This document shows, in pieces, positions 3,352 through 13,351 of a stretch of DNA of 64,000 nucleotides (its first letter is position 1; every line of letters begins with the position of its first letter). The notes under the pieces are model-generated. The model was not told the DNA's origin, ran no database searches, and saw only the letters and a list, made by a program, of their open reading frames with translations. Location of the stretch: positions 1 through 64,000 of the forward strand of contig NZ_JANHDH010000004.1 of NCBI RefSeq assembly GCF_026616195.1. The letters run 5' to 3'. The DNA is from Haloarchaeobius amylolyticus (lineage in GTDB: Archaea > Halobacteriota > Halobacteria > Halobacteriales > Natrialbaceae). The position numbers and the translations under genes were made by a program.

Positions 3352-3465
3352 CAGGGTGTATACTACTTCAGGACATCCTTAGACAGAATCACAAAGGCGG
3401 TTTACGGCAGGACACTCCGTGTTTGGCAGGTAGCTTGAAGGTGACCCCCTCAGACATGTAGTGGT

Positions 3466-4731
3466 ATGGCGCTTGATCACGAAAAACTATCTAATCTGAA
3501 ATCAAACTTGGAAGAGATTGTAGATAAGGTGCCTGCAAGTGATAAAAACAGTGAGAAAATTGTAAATGAAGTCATGGACCGGCTCGGGTTCGTTGAGGAG
3601 ATCGAAGAGTCTCGTCCGCCCCGACTCTATGTTTTCGGCAGATCTGGTGCTGGAAAATAGTCTCTGATCAATGCCTTAGCCAATCAGACTGTGACCGATG
3701 TTGGGGATATTAAGCCGACGACAGTGGAGTCTGAAATTTATGATATTTCATTCCCAGAACGATATGCTGACTGGCAGGTTGTCGACTCAAGAGGGCTATT
3801 TGAAAGCGTTAGTCCGGATGGAGACGTCCCCGCAGATACTGTGTCGATGATGGAACGAGATTTACGCGAATATCGACCTGATGTTCTGCTTCATGTTATT
3901 ACTCCAGATCAGGCAAGAGCAGGAAAAGATGATTTCGAAGCTGTTGAGAAATTACGGAATCAATTGGGCCCACTTTTCCCGCCAGTTATCTATTGTGTGA
4001 ATAAGGTGGACACGCACATGTCGCCGGGAGGTGACTGGCCGCCGGAGGATAATCTTTCGTTACAAGAGGATATCTACAGCACCCTGAATTTCGTGGCTGA
4101 TGATCTTCTCGAAGAGCACGAGAAGGAGCCGTTTGATAGGGATAAGCCGTATCTGGGGTATCAGTTCAATTCGGAGACGCATATTGGAGCGGTTCCGGTC
4201 TGTCTCAAGGAGGGTTCGTATTGGAATGTCGATAACATCTCATGGCTGATCGGCGATTTTTTGCCAGCTGAAGCCAAGCTCCAGTTCTTTCAAGCACAAC
4301 AGAGGGATGAACTGATGCGGCGGTGGGCACGCAGTAGAACCTGGGAGACGTCTGTTGGGGCAGCCGGAGTTGGTGCAGCGCCGATGCCCGTCGCCGACTT
4401 TGCGATTCTGACCGGGATTCAACTTCTTCTGGTCGCGTTCCTCGGTGCGGCATCGTGCCGTGACTTGGAGTGGTCAACGGTCTCCGACTATCTGAGTGCG
4501 ATGGGAGCGTCAAGTGTAGCTGGCGTCGGTGCACGTGGATTGGCGAGAACCATGATTCAGGTAATTCCAGTTGGTGGAACCGCTATCTCTGCAGCTGTAG
4601 CATTCGGGACAACGTGGGCCATTGGCCGATCCGCCGAGGAGTATTTTTTCAATGACAACGTCGTCAAGCCTTCCGAATTTATGTCCGACGGAAAGGAACT
4701 CTTCCGGGAGCAATTCTCGAGAGAGAACTGA
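3466..4731 (+). pseudogene. Membrane-associated GTPase with DUF697-like C-terminus, interrupted by TAG in the P-loop
   Basis: The frame reads GRSGAGK, then TAG (3658-3660), then SLINAL. The stop replaces the Ser/Thr that binds magnesium in Walker A. Otherwise one continuous 422-codon frame carries the Era/YeeP-like G motifs: G1 as above, G2 in PTT, G3 DSRG and G4 NKVD. The C-terminal third has two glycine- and alanine-rich hydrophobic stretches, starting GAAPMPVADFAILTG and IPVGGTAISAAVAFG, resembling DUF697. A single base change from TCG would give TAG. The region is AT-rich compared with its neighbours, suggesting foreign origin. As read, it can make only a 64-residue peptide or a restart product without P-loop function. 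Confidence 0.8.
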
Positions 4732-4830
4732 GTCAGAGTCCGTGTCTCTCCAGTTTCTTTCTGTATAGTCGGGATGTTTTTGAGAGGACGCTCAGCAAAG
4801 TCTCAGTACCTATAGCTCGAATCCCAGAGT

Positions 4831-5343
4831 ATGCCCTACTGCCCGAATTGCGGGAGCCGGGTCAAAGCGGTTCATCATTACTGTGGCTCTTGTGGACAGG
4901 CATTATCGGAGATCGCTGAATCGGAGAGCGATCCACCGATGGCAGTCGATAGAGACGGATTCCTGTCAGTGCGTTCGCTTTCGTACGTCAATGAGCTACT
5001 GAACGGGGAACGAGAACTCGACCGTGATTCAGTCTCGTACACGCAGCTATCTCGAGAGGTGAGTGCTGCCTTTGCAGACTTCGCTCGACTCGCGATGGTC
5101 AACGACCTCGACCTTCTCCTTCTCTGGGCGGCGGGCTCAAACACAGGTGCATTGAGTATGTCCGTCGACGAAATGAACAGCAATCAGTTCCGAGACTGGC
5201 TCGCTGCGATTGGACTTGGGCGTACTCTTCGAATGTACGATGACGCGCTCCACACTGAGTTCGAGGACGAGTTCAACGACCGACTGCAGAAACTGATCGA
5301 GTTCGCCAACGAAGAACTGGACGACGAAGAGATCTCCAAGTAA
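4831..5343 (+). CDS. Double-CxxC zinc-ribbon protein
   Basis: This 170-residue acidic protein starts with a zinc ribbon, CPNCGS and CGSCGQ at residues about 4-22, that should bind one zinc. The remaining 145 residues are soluble and mainly helical, rich in Glu, Asp and Leu, with no recognised domain. Such N-terminal zinc ribbons are common on haloarchaeal adaptor and regulatory proteins. It follows the broken GTPase by 100 bp and is convergent with the SWIM gene, from which it is only 5 bp away. Role unknown. Confidence 0.7.
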   Translation: MPYCPNCGSRVKAVHHYCGSCGQALSEIAESESDPPMAVDRDGFLSVRSLSYVNELLNGERELDRDSVSYTQLSREVSAAFADFARLAMVNDLDLLLLWAAGSNTGALSMSVDEMNSNQFRDWLAAIGLGRTLRMYDDALHTEFEDEFNDRLQKLIEFANEELDDEEISK

Positions 5344-5348
5344 GAGGC

Positions 5349-5870
5349 TTACAGTTGACTCGCTGGCCCGTATTCCTCGGACAACGCTGTTTTCAAATCG
5401 AAGTCATCCCCTTCTGAGATTTCCTCGATGACATCGTACACGAACTGGAGAGCCTGTCTCTCTGCATCCAGATGAGCGAGCTCCTTCTCTCGACACTGGA
5501 TCTTCGAGAGAAGATGTGATTTGAATCGCACCCCGGAGTCCCTGAGTACGGGTTCAGATTGTCTACCGTCACTTCGCTGCGGAAGGCGTCCATCTGGACG
5601 CGGAATACGACCACCATCTAATTCTAACTCAACCCGCCTGACGTGCTTGCATGGGCTCGGAGTAGACGGGTTTTCCCCGTCGGGACAGTTGCACTGTCTG
5701 TCCAGGAGGTCGACTTCGTATCGCGCGCCTGATTCCGACTGGACTTCGTAGAGGCCACCCTGCCGGAGCAGCGCTACGTCCATATGTTCTTCACGAGCCC
5801 GCCGATCGCGGTCGTCGACTATCGGACTCTGTTCGCCTTCTTGGATTGAGGATGAGTCTGTGACTGCCAT
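5349..5870 (-). CDS. SWIM zinc-finger protein
   Basis: This 173-residue protein has the SWIM signature CxCx(n)CxH: CNCPDG, a spacer of about eight residues, then CKH, around residues 60-76. SWIM domains bind DNA or protein and are frequent in haloarchaeal plasmids. The C-terminal third is helical and charged and looks like a coiled coil. It is one of three SWIM proteins in the window (also 14705-15634 and 41525-42334). The three are otherwise unlike each other. It stands alone on this strand. Function unknown beyond the zinc finger. Confidence 0.8.
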   Translation of the reverse strand: MAVTDSSSIQEGEQSPIVDDRDRRAREEHMDVALLRQGGLYEVQSESGARYEVDLLDRQCNCPDGENPSTPSPCKHVRRVELELDGGRIPRPDGRLPQRSDGRQSEPVLRDSGVRFKSHLLSKIQCREKELAHLDAERQALQFVYDVIEEISEGDDFDLKTALSEEYGPASQL

Positions 5871-6049
5871 GTGGAGTGAGGTGGGAGAACGAATGCAACC
5901 GTTCGCTCCTCCACGCTCTTCAGAGCGATAAAATTCAGAGCCGGCGATATCGACAACAGCAGCAACGGTAGAACCATTAATAACGTTAGAAATCCCGAAT
6001 AGAGAACATGGCCATCAATTCATGGAGAGGATTCCAAATATATCGAAAC

Positions 6050-6988
6050 TTAGAAACTTTCTGGGTAACCGCTCACCAGTGCATCATCGAACGCACAGAG
6101 GTCGGCCTCATCTACGGCACAGTCGCCTAGTTTGTCAGGATCTGTCGAATAGTTTTGCTGTGACTTCACCCTCCATTCAGAGCCATCTGTGGTTGCGACG
6201 ATGTTACCATGTACAGCAGTCCAAAACACTTCACAACCGTACCTCTTAGCATCATTCAAGAATTTCCTACTTGGGTGGTCATACCTCTTATCGTGGTACT
6301 CGTGTGCGCTAGAGACAAATATATAGTCGGGATCACAGTGTTCGAGCAGCGATGAATAATCCACTGTACCACTCCCATGATGAGGTGCGACCAGACAATC
6401 GATTCCTTTTGTTCTTGTATCGCTTGTGACCCAATCTACACCACGTTCTTCAATATCTCCAGGGAATAGGATCGTCTTCTCCTCATATGAAAATATGAGG
6501 CAGAGGCTGTTGTCATTTTTATTCACCGGTGAGGATGGGTTGGAAGGTGGAGAAACGGCGTACATCTTCGCATTGCTGTCTGGTAGTAAGTCCTCTGAAT
6601 ATGTGTTGGACAGCTTTCGAGGGCTGTAACCCGCAGCCATTACCTCGTCGAGCGTGTCAGCAATCCCTCGGCTAACTTGGTTCTTTGTTCTTATTTGGGT
6701 CGGAAAATATACGGACTGGATCGGTAGTTGCTCCAAAAGTTCGGTATGACCGAAATGGTCGATATCAGAGTGTGTCCCAAAGAGTTTCGGGATCTCAGTG
6801 CTAGCAGAGTTTATTTTGACAACTTCAGTTATATATTTCTTTAAATACTGCGTAGCTGATCTGGATATCCGTTTGCCTAGAGATCCTCCTTCAATATCAA
6901 TTACTCCAACGTCGCCGTCAGGGCAAACAAATAGATTACTACTACCTAGTCCCACATTCAAAATATGCGCCTCAATTGTTTCACTCAT
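6050..6988 (-). CDS. ComEC/Rec2-like metallo-beta-lactamase hydrolase, second gene of a two-gene cassette
   Basis: This is a 312-residue protein starting at MSETIEAHIL. The open frame continues 20 codons upstream, but this ATG overlaps the end of the preceding gene by 8 bp and fits the MBL fold (NVGLGSSNLF near the start). Metal ligands are visible: HSDIDH at about 73-78, APHHGSG around residue 200, and a later SAHEYHDKRYDHP motif typical of the free-standing ComEC hydrolase domain. No membrane segments are present, so it is a soluble hydrolase, probably acting on nucleic acid or nucleotides. It is translationally coupled to an unknown upstream protein in an AT-rich segment. The pair resembles a defence-type cassette, but that is an inference. 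Confidence 0.8.
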   Translation of the reverse strand: MSETIEAHILNVGLGSSNLFVCPDGDVGVIDIEGGSLGKRISRSATQYLKKYITEVVKINSASTEIPKLFGTHSDIDHFGHTELLEQLPIQSVYFPTQIRTKNQVSRGIADTLDEVMAAGYSPRKLSNTYSEDLLPDSNAKMYAVSPPSNPSSPVNKNDNSLCLIFSYEEKTILFPGDIEERGVDWVTSDTRTKGIDCLVAPHHGSGTVDYSSLLEHCDPDYIFVSSAHEYHDKRYDHPSRKFLNDAKRYGCEVFWTAVHGNIVATTDGSEWRVKSQQNYSTDPDKLGDCAVDEADLCAFDDALVSGYPESF

Positions 6989-7868
6989 TATTGACACCCC
7001 ATTCTTGTGGTTCAAGAAAAATTTCCTCAAACTGAACCATCGTCTCATTTATCATTTGTTGAACTTCCTCTTTGCGTCCTGGATTAGTAATGAGGAGAAC
7101 AGTTTCATCAGGCCCCAATACGAGATCAAACGTCTCGTTTAATCGAACGTTCCCCAATTCCTCTGCGGTAGTTCCACTCATTGATATTTCATCGACCGCC
7201 GATCCATCATCATACACGATCAGTCTGGGTGTTGGCTCATCAACTTCTTCGACTGTGGCCTCAAGATGGTAATTTGGTGTTCCCTCTTTTATTGTGGGGT
7301 ATTCGTAGAATAGCGTAGCTCGGACAATAGAACGAGGGATGTTTGGGGATTGTTGAGAAATTACTTTTTCAGCTGCGACATCGGCCATTTGATACACTGA
7401 GGGGTCGCCTGAGATGGCGAAAATGTCTGACCCTACGGCTTCGTTGACTTGTGTTACAATCTCCCTTAGATTGGTGAAATCTATTTCCTCTACTAAAGAG
7501 AGTTGACGGTTATTCCTCTTCAAAGCATTTCGCGTCATTTCTCGAAGTCCGGAGAGATCTCCTGCAGGGACTGCAGTTGATTCATCGCCTCCGTAATCGA
7601 TAATCAACACCCTTTGACCCCCTTGATGGATTTTCTCCAGATAGTTTTCTTCGACAAGTGCATTAAGAAGGTTGGTATATTGTAAAGAAGTATATAATTT
7701 TTCTGAATTACCTACGTACGCTCCGATATTGTGTGAATCTTGCGCCACTTCTTCTAATTTACTTCTCTTGAATTCGCTTGTCCCAATTAGGAACGCGATA
7801 GCTGCCGCGACTCGTTTCCTTCCTTCTGTGAGCTGTTCCCACTCTGTAGGCGTAGTATCTGAAGACAT
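6981..7868 (-). CDS. Unknown protein, first gene of the MBL cassette
   Basis: This 295-residue protein has no family I recognise. Residues 1-90 are helical and contain a winged-helix-like segment (SEFKRSKLEEVAQDSHN, then VEENYLEKIHQGGQRVLI). The middle and C-terminal parts alternate beta and alpha (residues about 150-260). No membrane segment or cysteine motif is seen. Codon use is AT-rich like that of the MBL gene that overlaps its 3' end by 8 bp, so the two were probably acquired together. It may be a sensor or DNA-binding partner of the hydrolase. An imperfect palindrome centred on ACACTTTAGTGT (7946-7957) lies about 80 bp before its ATG and could be an operator. Confidence 0.6.
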   Translation of the reverse strand: MSSDTTPTEWEQLTEGRKRVAAAIAFLIGTSEFKRSKLEEVAQDSHNIGAYVGNSEKLYTSLQYTNLLNALVEENYLEKIHQGGQRVLIIDYGGDESTAVPAGDLSGLREMTRNALKRNNRQLSLVEEIDFTNLREIVTQVNEAVGSDIFAISGDPSVYQMADVAAEKVISQQSPNIPRSIVRATLFYEYPTIKEGTPNYHLEATVEEVDEPTPRLIVYDDGSAVDEISMSGTTAEELGNVRLNETFDLVLGPDETVLLITNPGRKEEVQQMINETMVQFEEIFLEPQEWGVNNE

Positions 7869-8122
7869 CTAATCAAATAACATTCATCAACCAGTGCTGT
7901 TGTTGAAGTACAAAGCTATTCAGATTAATACGGTATATTCTATAGACACTTTAGTGTATAGGTCACGTATATCATGATGAACTCCGTTTTAGGGACATAG
8001 GTGGCTTTCCAATGGGTAGGGATGTTCGGATTGATTCATCCGTGGTTAATATATCCCCTTCTTTTTTTGAGTTCTTGACTAATTCGAATAATCCTGTATG
8101 GGCCGGTATTCAATTTCAAAGC

Positions 8123-8533
8123 TCAGTCAGATCCCGCGAGCAACTTCTCACGGGAAGCGTTGATATTCGACCGGACTGCATCTCCGGTCACACCTCGGAT
8201 TTCGGCCCACTGGGCGACAGTGAACCGCTCTGCTTCCTCGACGACGACGACCCAGTCGACAGCCTCGTGAAGCGAGAGTTCCCCGGCGATTAGTTCCGTG
8301 ACTCGTTCGAGGAAGTCCTGGTCGTCCCAAGCGAGATTGACTTCTTCGAACAGGTGGTTCTCAGAGTCGTACGAGGCGACCATCTGGATGGCACCGTGCT
8401 GTTCGAGTTCTGCTCGAACGTGAGCAGGCAGGGAATCCAGTGCAGTCTCTGGTAACGGGTACGCTGGGACATCGTGGAGTGAGGCAACATCGAAGGGTGT
8501 GAGACTGCGGTGTGACTCGTCTCCGAATTTCAT
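8123..8533 (-). CDS. Hypothetical protein with a sigma-70 region 4-like helix-turn-helix at its C-terminus
   Basis: This is a 136-residue protein if started at MKFGDESHRS. The 33 upstream in-frame codons overlap a transposon-end-like hairpin and are probably not translated. Residues about 105-130 (ERFTVAQWAEIRGVTGDAVR) look like a helix-turn-helix. The N-terminal part contains the conserved-looking LTPFDVASLHDVPAYP and an aromatic acidic middle. It faces the TnpB gene divergently and may have lost its original promoter to the insertion there. Role unknown, possibly regulatory. Confidence 0.6.
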   Translation of the reverse strand: MKFGDESHRSLTPFDVASLHDVPAYPLPETALDSLPAHVRAELEQHGAIQMVASYDSENHLFEEVNLAWDDQDFLERVTELIAGELSLHEAVDWVVVVEEAERFTVAQWAEIRGVTGDAVRSNINASREKLLAGSD

Positions 8534-8552
8534 AGAGATTGCGAGGCGGATA

Positions 8553-8583
8553 CCCCGACCCTTGAGGTCAGGGAGGAAGCCAA
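8553..8583 (+). repeat. Solitary right-end-like hairpin of a TnpB element
   Basis: CCC-C-GACC, loop CTTGA, then GGTC-A-GGG, followed by GGAGGAAGCC. The stem, the single mismatch at the same place and the CTTGA loop match the hairpin after the TnpB stop at 9933-9953. The trailing GGAGG resembles the shared right terminus of the other elements. No TnpB lies to its left, so it is either the scar of a lost copy or a left-end structure of the adjacent element. Confidence 0.4.
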
Positions 8584-8676
8584 CACTCGATGACACAACC
8601 CACGCACGATAGCATGGCCGACTCCCCACCATTCCTAATAAATACTTTCAAGTATATTCAACAGTACTAATGAAGC

Positions 8677-9912
8677 ATGGAGGTCGTCCGCAACATCCAA
8701 GTAAAGCTCGACGTTCCCGAGGACGCCCATAGCGTTCTCGATGAGACGTTCGAGCAGTTCCGACAAGCGGCTCAGTACGTCGCAAACACTGGATGGAGCG
8801 ACGACCCTACCCAGATCGAGGACACAAAGAACACGCTCCACGGCCAAACCTACGCTGACGTTCGGGAGCAAACCAGTCTGCAAGCCAGTCTCGTCCAATC
8901 CGCCCGCAACCTCGCCGCAGACGCACTCGGCAACTGCAAAGACCGTATTCTCGAGGACGGCAAGAAAGCCAGCAAGCCTGAGTTTCGTGGAAGCGTCGTC
9001 GTGTACAACGGGCGTACCATCACTTACCACGACGACCACGTCACCCTCGCCACCGTGGACGACCGCGTGACGGCCGAGTTCGTCATGCCCGAAGACGACG
9101 AGGGCACACCGTTCGCGGAGTATTGGACGCCAGAGTGGGAACGCAAGGAATCCACGCTCCACGAACGGGACGGCACGTACTACCTCCACGTCGCAGTCGA
9201 GAAAGAAGTCGAACCTTCGTCTGCTGATTCTGGCGACGAGCAGACCGAGAACGGAGTGGTTCTCGGCGTCGATTTAAACGTGGACGGCTACCTCGCTGTC
9301 ACCAGTACGGGAGCATTCTATGGCAACGCAGACCACCTTAACCACAAGCGCGACGAGTACGAGCGTCGGCGCGGTAACCTGCAACAGACGGGCACTCGCT
9401 CCGCACACCTCACTATCAAGGGCATCGGCTCGCGGTTCGCACGGTGGAGCGCCGACTACCTCCACCGCGTGTCGAAGGCTATCGTCCGTGAAGCCGTAGA
9501 GAACGATTGCACTGCAATCGGGTTCGAGAACCTGAAACATATCCGCGAGCGTATCTCGAACGCCAGCAAGTTCCAGCAGTGGGCGTTCCGCGAACTCCAA
9601 CAACACGTCGAATACAAAGCCGAAGAAGAAGGCATCGATGTGGATGACGTTTCGCCTGCCTATACGAGTCAGCGATGCAGTCACGGTAAGTGCGGATTCA
9701 CGCACGAAGCCAACCGCGACGGTGATGAGTTCGAGTGTCTGAAGTGTGGGAAAGAACTGCACGCCGACTACAACGCCGCCCGGAATATCGGGTGGCGTCT
9801 TGTCCAGCACTGGCTCAAGTCTGGTGCTGGACGGGCCACCAGTCAACTGGCTCTGAAGTCAGGGACGCTGAACGCGAACGGTCGATTCCGACCTACTGCC
9901 CTTCGCAGTTAG
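8677..9912 (+). CDS. tnpB: TnpB, RNA-guided endonuclease of an IS200/IS605-type element
   Basis: This 411-residue protein appears intact. The RuvC-like site is complete: Asp199 in GVDLNVDG, Glu284 in GFENLKHI and Asp364 in HADYNAARNI. A zinc ribbon (C334, C339, C354, C357) sits between the second and third acids, as in the family. TnpB uses an RNA made from the element's 3' end to cut DNA and favour element retention. No tnpA is present, so this is an IS1341-type element that depends on a transposase elsewhere. It is one of five TnpB genes here and the only one on this strand. AT-rich sequence immediately upstream probably holds the left end. Confidence 0.93.
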   Translation: MEVVRNIQVKLDVPEDAHSVLDETFEQFRQAAQYVANTGWSDDPTQIEDTKNTLHGQTYADVREQTSLQASLVQSARNLAADALGNCKDRILEDGKKASKPEFRGSVVVYNGRTITYHDDHVTLATVDDRVTAEFVMPEDDEGTPFAEYWTPEWERKESTLHERDGTYYLHVAVEKEVEPSSADSGDEQTENGVVLGVDLNVDGYLAVTSTGAFYGNADHLNHKRDEYERRRGNLQQTGTRSAHLTIKGIGSRFARWSADYLHRVSKAIVREAVENDCTAIGFENLKHIRERISNASKFQQWAFRELQQHVEYKAEEEGIDVDDVSPAYTSQRCSHGKCGFTHEANRDGDEFECLKCGKELHADYNAARNIGWRLVQHWLKSGAGRATSQLALKSGTLNANGRFRPTALRS

Positions 9913-9961
9913 AGCGAGAGTCCACTGACAAGCCTCAGGGCTTGACCCCGAGGCGGTTGAC
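9913..9961 (+). mobile_element. Right end and putative guide-RNA 3' hairpin of the TnpB element
   Basis: CCTCAGGG, loop CTTGA, CCCCGAGG (9933-9953) forms an 8-bp stem with one A-C mismatch just after the stop. In this family the RNA guide scaffold ends at the right end of the element, so the hairpin probably belongs to it. The exact end, near 9955-9961, cannot be set without an empty site. Confidence 0.5.
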
Positions 9962-11767: not shown

Positions 11768-11805
11768 AGCGATAATCGGAGGAAGGAACGTTAGCGGACA
11801 GGAAG

Positions 11806-11866
11806 TGACATCCTCCCCGCCGTGAACGGCGCGGCTTCCCGTACTGCAGTTGGGATATTTACCGGT
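11806..11866 (-). mobile_element. Right end of the TnpB element, ending at TGACATC
   Basis: Read on the element strand, the sequence after the tnpB stop forms a GC-rich hairpin (GCCGTTCACGGC) and ends GGGGAGGATGTCA. The same GATGTCA end follows the tnpB genes at 35409, 49696 and 56016, so 11806 is probably the outer boundary and the start of the guide segment. Confidence 0.6.
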
Positions 11867-13117
11867 CTACGACACGACTTGCTCTCTCGTGCAAAACGTC
11901 CCGCTCTCGCGGTCGAACAAGTGGGTCGATGGCTGTGCCACACAGCCGTTACTCCTATCCTCACCGTGAGGACTCGGAGTTATCTTCTGGCGCATATTCT
12001 CCGCCCCGTTACAATCCGCGTTCCCGACCAACCCGCATGACGAGCAGACGTACAGCCCACGTTCGACACGGTTCGACTTTGTGGCGTCACCACACCGCGA
12101 GCACGTTTTCGAGGTGTTCCACTCGTTTTCCTTCAGCACATCGACTCCTCGAATCTCGCCTTTGTATTCGAGGTACTGGTAGATGCGGTCGAACGCCCAC
12201 GAGTGCAGTTTCTTGTTGCCGGTCTTGCCCCAATCGGATTCCCGTACGTCTTCAGGCCAACTCACCGCGAGCGTGCCGACACCACGTTCGATACACTCGG
12301 TGATGATGGTGTCCGTGAGAGTGTGGTAGAAGTGCGTCTCGCGGTCAGCGAGTTTCTGACGTGCCCACATCGACTTCTCTGATGGGCCGTTCTCACCTTC
12401 AGTGTCGTACTCGGCCTGCTTGAAGTAGTGCTTGTCTTGCTTGAGCGAGTTGCCCGGATACAGCACGTATTCATCAGGGAACGCGACCGTGGCGATGTTC
12501 TTGATGCCAAGGTCGATGCCTGCAACTTCGTCGCCTGCTGAAGCGTTCGTCTCGAGCTTGACTTTGCAGACGAAGTGCAGTTCCCACTCGTCACCGTTCC
12601 AGACGGCACGAACATTCTGTACGCTGTTGACTTCCGAAAGGTCAATATCAGGGCGGGTCTGGTACTCGCAGAGCAGAAAGTCTGACCAATACTCTTTGAG
12701 GTTCTTTCCCTTGCTGAGTCGGACGCGGTTGTTCTCAGGGTCGTGTTTGAATCCGTCTTCTTTGAACGTGACCGTACTACGTGGTCGTTGGTCACCGTGT
12801 TTGCGGTAGCCGGGCGGATTCGCCTCTGGGTCTCTCTGTCGCAGGTCGAACCACGACTGGAAAGCGTCAGAGAGTTCTTCAATGACTTTCTGACTAGATT
12901 GCGCGTTCAAGTCTTTCCAGCACGAATGGTTTTTCATATACGATTTCAGCACACCTTCGTTTGGGATTTCGCTGGTTGCATCCCAAATTCGGTCTGCTGT
13001 CCATCGTGCGACGTTCCAGATCTTCGAGGCGGAGTCTCCGAGCGAATCGAGGCCATCGCAGACCTGCCGGTGGTTCCGAATAGAACCAACATAAGTTCGA
13101 GTGACCTCAATCGCCAT
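11867..13117 (-). CDS. tnpB: TnpB, copy 1 of a near-identical pair
   Basis: This 416-residue protein is very similar over its full length to the one at 49696-50946. RuvC acids Asp202 (GIDLGIKN) and Asp368 (GNADCNGAEN) are clear, and the zinc ribbon is C339, C342, C358 and C361. At the usual middle-Glu position the motif reads LAVSWPEDV, so the nearest Glu (289) is displaced by about two residues. The copy at 49696 has the same motif, so this is a property of the subgroup rather than damage. No frameshift is visible. No tnpA accompanies it. Confidence 0.9.
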   Translation of the reverse strand: MAIEVTRTYVGSIRNHRQVCDGLDSLGDSASKIWNVARWTADRIWDATSEIPNEGVLKSYMKNHSCWKDLNAQSSQKVIEELSDAFQSWFDLRQRDPEANPPGYRKHGDQRPRSTVTFKEDGFKHDPENNRVRLSKGKNLKEYWSDFLLCEYQTRPDIDLSEVNSVQNVRAVWNGDEWELHFVCKVKLETNASAGDEVAGIDLGIKNIATVAFPDEYVLYPGNSLKQDKHYFKQAEYDTEGENGPSEKSMWARQKLADRETHFYHTLTDTIITECIERGVGTLAVSWPEDVRESDWGKTGNKKLHSWAFDRIYQYLEYKGEIRGVDVLKENEWNTSKTCSRCGDATKSNRVERGLYVCSSCGLVGNADCNGAENMRQKITPSPHGEDRSNGCVAQPSTHLFDRESGTFCTREQVVS

Positions 13118-13351
13118 ACATAGTCTGTGTAGACAAACCTACTTAATGATCAGGAGTAGCCTGAGATATCCAGCCTGTCATAGGCGGTGGTCTGTATAGG
13201 AGTTGTCGTATCCTCTCTCGAAGATTGATAGATTCAGTAGTTGCGGGATACGCAACTGTGCGGAGTCATTCACCGAATATCAAGACGCTGTCGCACTTTC
13301 GCTCGCACAGACTGCAGAAGTCGTCTGGTTCGTATGTCCAAGCGTTGGGGT

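Follow-up and report, generated by a model that had tools for sequence, protein, structure and literature searches.

The gene pair and the replicon that carries it

We analyzed the first 64 kb (hereafter, the window) of contig C4, which is 253,758 bp long and belongs to a haloarchaeal genome of 4.6 Mb. On the minus strand of the window, a gene encoding a protein of 295 amino acids (hereafter, the partner) is directly followed by a gene for a ComEC-type hydrolase of the metallo-beta-lactamase (MBL) fold. The features of the locus are as follows.

6981-7868, minus strand: partner gene, 295 aa, ORF intact
7374-7868, minus strand: winged-helix-like family part of the partner, residues 1-165, stand-alone in other genomes
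7023-7259, minus strand: possible diverged DUF3006 domain of the partner, residues ~204-282, weak profile match
6981-6988, minus strand: overlap of the partner stop and the MBL start, 8 bp, read from the sequence
6050-6988, minus strand: ComEC-type MBL-fold hydrolase gene, 312 aa, ORF intact
6755-6772, minus strand: metal motif HSDIDH (HxDxDH), residues 73-78, aligned with HPDADH of 9ic4
6455-6457, minus strand: metal ligand D178 (GD motif), invariant in 13 sequences
6371-6385, minus strand: PHHGS motif, residues 202-206, with HHGS invariant in 13 sequences and PHHGS identical in 9ic4
5993-8137, no strand assigned: variable segment with the pair, 2145 bp here, 117 bp of unrelated DNA in replicon G399:C3

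The 8-bp overlap, which reads ATGAGTGA on the minus strand, had already been noted in a first-pass annotation made from the sequence alone, and the gene boundaries confirm it. The mechanically called ORF of the MBL extends to position 7048 (332 aa); however, the ATG at 6988 (312 aa) is the most likely start, because alignments with relatives show similarity from residues 3-5 onward. Given the overlap, translation of the two genes is probably coupled. A palindrome upstream of the partner gene was not above chance, as 612 of 1,000 shuffles matched it.

The first-pass annotation had also claimed that the codons of both genes are unusually AT-rich compared with the neighbours. We found GC contents of 0.437 for the partner and 0.456 for the MBL, and third-position values (GC3) of 0.382 and 0.441, respectively. 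The latter are the two lowest among the 48 window genes that a simple ORF caller predicted with a product length of 150 aa or more (mean 0.629, SD 0.082), which agrees with the claim and supports a foreign composition of the pair.

From these observations the annotation had suggested transfer as a unit, and a replicon lacking the pair supports this independently. A DNA search over 125 genomes of the same family yielded one matching replicon, G399:C3, similar to much of the window between 867 and 25,571 at 91-97% identity. The flanks of the pair are preserved there (95.0% identity for window positions 4793-5992 on the left and 93.2% for 8138-8533 on the right), as are a SWIM-finger gene and an HTH gene, one on each side of the 117 bp. 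The 117 bp are no more similar to the pair than shuffled sequences; a 10-base coincidence with the 3' end of the MBL gene, spotted by eye, was rejected, its alignment score being 21 against a mean of 19 and a maximum of 28 for shuffles. Since 117 bp in G399:C3 stand against 2145 bp in the window, the pair comes or goes as one unit, in agreement with its composition, through either a gain here or a loss there (two genomes compared).

Two TnpB-bearing insertions, at 8534-9961 and 11805-13227 of the window, are absent from G399:C3, where their flanks join directly. The first of them truncates or re-starts the HTH gene at 8123-8632; like the end of an insertion element, the ~30 residues at the start of this gene product recur at many sites across the family genomes. 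A second variable slot, at 3376-4792, carries a GTPase-like gene (3691-4731, weak match to PDC-S29) in the window and a different protein of 372 aa, CoiA-like by eye, in G399. A PIN-like protein encoded at 59-565 has a PADLOC candidate match to PDC-S70 (66 bits).

The first-pass annotation had recommended a search for the pair in other genomes; none of the MBL relatives seen has this partner. The pair did not turn up a second time in 392 genomes of the order, 125 genomes of the family, viral contigs, plasmids or a limited scan of genome_contigs. In particular, the viral contigs searched held no close relatives of the pair, the plasmids held relatives but none with the whole pair, the phages held relatives of the MBL alone, and the limited genome_contigs scan gave four relatives of the partner N-terminus and nothing else.

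The MBL and the companions of its relatives

All motifs of ComEC-type MBL domains (HxDxDH, GD, and HHGS) are present in the window MBL, and H73, D77, and H78 are invariant in 13 sequences, that is, the MBL and 12 haloarchaeal relatives. Three solved ComEC beta-lactamase domains, 9ic4, 9vc6, and 30bt, match it with E-values from 3e-9 to 6e-7, residues 68-275 aligning with 62-263 of 9ic4 (208 vs. 202 residues) with short gaps. The structure model of the MBL is poor (pLDDT 37.1), and insertions were judged by sequence comparison. Identity with the ComEC/Rec2 DNA-uptake channel, which shares the MBL domain, was rejected: the TIGR00361 score is 43.3 bits, coming from the MBL part alone, far below the cut-off of 190.05, Pfam finds no Competence (membrane channel) domain in the protein, and there are no signs of competence. 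No lipobox was detected in the MBL, and neither a hydrophobic N-terminus nor a lamin tail was seen by eye. Hence the protein is apparently non-exported and free-standing, and the motifs, the matches to solved domains and the missing channel domain bear out its earlier description as a free-standing ComEC-type MBL with a partner. Judging by these features, it would be a cytoplasmic metal-dependent hydrolase, probably a DNase.

Enzymes of the MBL fold differ widely in function, and their substrates cannot be read from sequence. Rather than being a nuclease, the window MBL could cleave some other phosphodiester or ester, such as a nucleotide second messenger, and the partner would then be a transcriptional regulator. 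We regard this as very unlikely, since ComEC MBL domains are its nearest relatives of solved structure and all motifs of the ComEC branch are kept.

Relatives of the MBL occur in 252 of the 392 order genomes, including its own, the best of them being 33-34% identical. Identity to an exported MBL family ranges from 26 to 34%, and in a tree of 24 MBLs the window MBL forms a very long branch with no placement. The exported haloarchaeal relatives have the same motifs and, similar to the window MBL, are coupled to a small partner gene. A DUF3006 gene lies on the same strand in all 31 loci first examined, 29 of them in other genomes and two being paralogs from the own genome; this count leaves out a weak own-genome match (L004, E 0.04) and further MBL loci, including L095 and L096. 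In 30 of the 31 loci, the DUF3006 gene was scored downstream of the MBL gene. L095 and L096, which are also exported MBL loci, gave no DUF3006 match. The MBL-DUF3006 pair is annotated in records of the Geobacillus plasmid pGYMC5201, the Geobacillus phage GBSV1, Haloprofundus, and Natrinema, while the term DUF3006 does not occur in the literature searched. An MBL found widely alone and having a clear housekeeping role had been named as the case that would speak against the first-pass annotation; instead, the relatives are widespread, and most of those examined are exported and stand beside DUF3006. The DUF3006 proteins of the exported MBLs have no visible signal sequence, and therefore an internal inhibitor protecting the producer would make sense.

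Many of the exported relatives have a lamin tail domain, and their DUF3006 is a separate downstream gene. By contrast, the window MBL is not visibly exported, and its partner lies upstream and has an extra winged-helix-like part. The exported family, with its lamin-tail and lipoprotein MBLs, has been discussed in connection with extracellular DNA metabolism and biofilms in PMC3929857 and PMC5118699. Given the 26-34% identity, the pair could derive from this family and now work inside the cell in the metabolism of plasmid or incoming DNA, being non-toxic and having the partner as a regulator. We consider this unlikely, as the window MBL has no visible signal, lipobox or lamin tail domain and is too diverged for its origin inside the exported family to be resolved.

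Closer in arrangement are six non-exported haloarchaeal MBLs with a DUF3006-like gene upstream (the second locus of L102, L180, L181, L182, L183 from Halocatena salina, and L185 from Halocatena marina). Like the window MBL, they have no visible export signal and a partner gene directly upstream. The two genes overlap by 1-4 bp in four of the six loci and are separated by 21 bp in L185; in L182, the start of the MBL is uncertain. The window partner occupies the same upstream, overlapping position. Unlike it, these companions are ~90-120 aa long and have no winged-helix part, and their MBLs are longer (~450-590 aa) and 22-25% identical to the window MBL. Pfam gave weak matches or none for four of the upstream DUF3006-like proteins. 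In one genome, 6 kb of sequence (L102:4559-9940) hold two MBLs, one exported and one not, and each has a DUF3006-like gene to itself.

The two parts of the partner

The N-terminal part of the partner (residues 1-165) belongs to a haloarchaeal family present in 17 of the 392 order genomes, the own genome included, with E-values down to 1e-25. Elsewhere, its members are stand-alone proteins of ~175-250 aa. An alignment of 15 sequences has 16 invariant columns. Sub-threshold Pfam matches of the family, each found in one to three of the 15 members, include MUS81-like WH, MksE, DUF6293_C, Nse1, and MAGE, which we take to be winged-helix families. In the partner model, residues 105-161 follow the order helix-helix-helix-strand-strand, and residues 101-150 are the best-modelled region (pLDDT 77-86). 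The possible winged-helix start proposed by the first-pass annotation is therefore plausible, and the fold order fits it, but the profile matches are weak and the model is of low confidence. Matches of the partner to MtrA (E 0.0005) and to a methyltransferase (E 0.002), both below curated cut-offs, were rejected as chance, because they are seen in one of the 15 family members, this partner alone.

No MBL relative detectable by BLASTP was found near the stand-alone homologs in any of 16 neighbourhoods. In seven of the 16, a conserved gene of ~215 aa lies divergently beside the homolog, an arrangement like that of a regulator. The ORF caller used did not call the homolog in L064 and L065. In genomes G243 and G411 (L058 and L130), the stand-alone homolog adjoins a SWIM-finger gene resembling the one at 5349-5870 of the window, downstream of the pair. 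A second winged-helix subgroup (L063-L066) is located near uncharacterised conserved genes; the neighbours in L063 include a SocA/Panacea-domain protein, which may mark a toxin-antitoxin region.

For the C-terminal part, a search of 392 genomes with the last 125 residues produced matches of at most 20 bits, with E-values calculated per genome, which we took as noise. Pfam did not detect DUF3006 here. A profile HMM built from nine DUF3006 sequences matched the C-terminus end-to-end with 9.3 bits, a score reached by nine of 20,000 shuffles and by 10 of 3,528 real segments of 90-120 residues, all 10 being DUF3006-type proteins. The match depends on the profile: that of the upstream subgroup was not significant (868 of 20,000 shuffles), whereas a combined profile (30 of 20,000) and one of 41 sequences (37 of 20,000) were intermediate, the latter ranking the partner third among the 411 ORFs of the window. 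An hhalign comparison with DUF3006 gave P 0.0018 and outscored 60 shuffles. As the likeness had been spotted by eye before testing, these P-values are somewhat generous. The structure model is of little help in this part (mean pLDDT 49.7 for the partner, with most of residues 167-295 falling under 50), and a Foldseek search with the partner model returned nothing at E 0.001 or below. Taken together, DUF3006 ancestry of the C-terminus is likely, yet unproven. The argument from gene order is independent of it.

A winged-helix-like partner that lies upstream and has a possibly DUF3006-derived domain is new among all genomes and contigs searched; the ComEC-type MBL is of a known kind.

Possible roles of the pair

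We suggest that the pair comprises a regulator or inhibitor and a nuclease, has an anatomy like that of type II toxin-antitoxin systems, and forms part of the accessory cargo carried by a plasmid-like replicon of haloarchaea; we give this reading as a whole a probability of about 0.4. It draws on the gene order, the overlap, the intact motifs, the lack of a visible export signal, the foreign composition, the presence or absence of the pair as a unit, and the DUF3006 genes beside the relatives. The partner would be translated first, in coupling with the MBL hydrolase. Its C-terminal part would bind and restrain the hydrolase, taking the place of the usual DUF3006 companion, while the winged-helix part may control the operon or sense DNA. 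The nuclease would be released once the partner is lost or displaced, much as happens in abortive-defence pairs or type II toxin-antitoxin systems. Similar to type II systems, the operon is small, the partner gene lies upstream, and the genes overlap. DNA binding by the partner, as expected of an antitoxin, is a prediction from its winged-helix-like features. The DNase activity, the binding, the inhibition, and the regulation are all predictions from sequence.

A further possibility is an anti-virus defence module: the winged-helix partner would detect the DNA of an invader or some product of a virus, and the MBL nuclease would be activated in response. In bacteria, nucleases of the ComEC-type MBL kind have come to be known as effectors of immunity. 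ComEC-like MBLs are effectors in Hachiman, AVAST, and canu, where a protease activates the gated nuclease by cutting its long insertions (PMC12799240). The branch of the MBL superfamily concerned includes Avs1a, LmuA, RTasMBL, and PDC-M48B, to which the window MBL has weak and partial matches. The best PADLOC match is PDC-M48B, with 34.6 bits over the C-terminal half, the others being similarly partial and weak. In addition, the pair, as mobile cargo, occupies a variable slot of the plasmid-like replicon, not far from other candidate genes of defence type, namely those of the PDC-S29-like GTPase (3691-4731) and the PDC-S70-like PIN protein (59-565). As in the gated pro-nucleases of Hachiman (HamM), AVAST (Avs1a), Lamassu (LmuA), DRT, and canu (CanC), a ComEC-like MBL stands beside a partner gene. 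However, in these pro-nucleases the active site is blocked by two long insertions that are disordered, whereas the window MBL appears to have short ones by comparison with 12 haloarchaeal relatives, and none of such length relative to 9ic4 (208 vs. 202 residues). The gated pro-nucleases also have a trypsin-like or caspase-like protease as partner; no match to any protease family was found in three libraries for the window partner and four neighbours (genes at 3691, 4831, 5349, and 8123), nor is there a known sensor. A complete PDC-M48 (A and B proteins) is absent from the pair, as the partner has no PADLOC match, and the pair was not found in the other genomes searched. Altogether, we regard this defence role as rather doubtful.

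A bolder extension of the partner-controlled nuclease reading is that DUF3006 proteins are the cognate inhibitors of these enzymes, so that a pairing of ComEC-type MBL nuclease and inhibitor would span archaea, Geobacillus plasmids, and phages. The window locus would then be a fusion of the inhibitor and a DNA-binding regulator, by which an exported pair of enzyme and inhibitor became an intracellular module that regulates itself and serves as a toxin-antitoxin or in defence. This extension is speculative and probably does not hold. If DUF3006 and the winged-helix partner are indeed inhibitors or regulators of nucleases, a widespread unexplained gene pair gains a testable function, and the locus illustrates how an MBL-DUF3006-like pair could give rise to a mobile defence or toxin-antitoxin device.

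A minor observation concerns an exported MBL-DUF3006 pair, that of an MBL paralog, on the same contig, C4. About 1 kb from it lies a CRISPR-array-like stretch (L097:7566-8378), which was called as an ORF; the ORF is false, and its translation repeats FNPVVGFLAAST.
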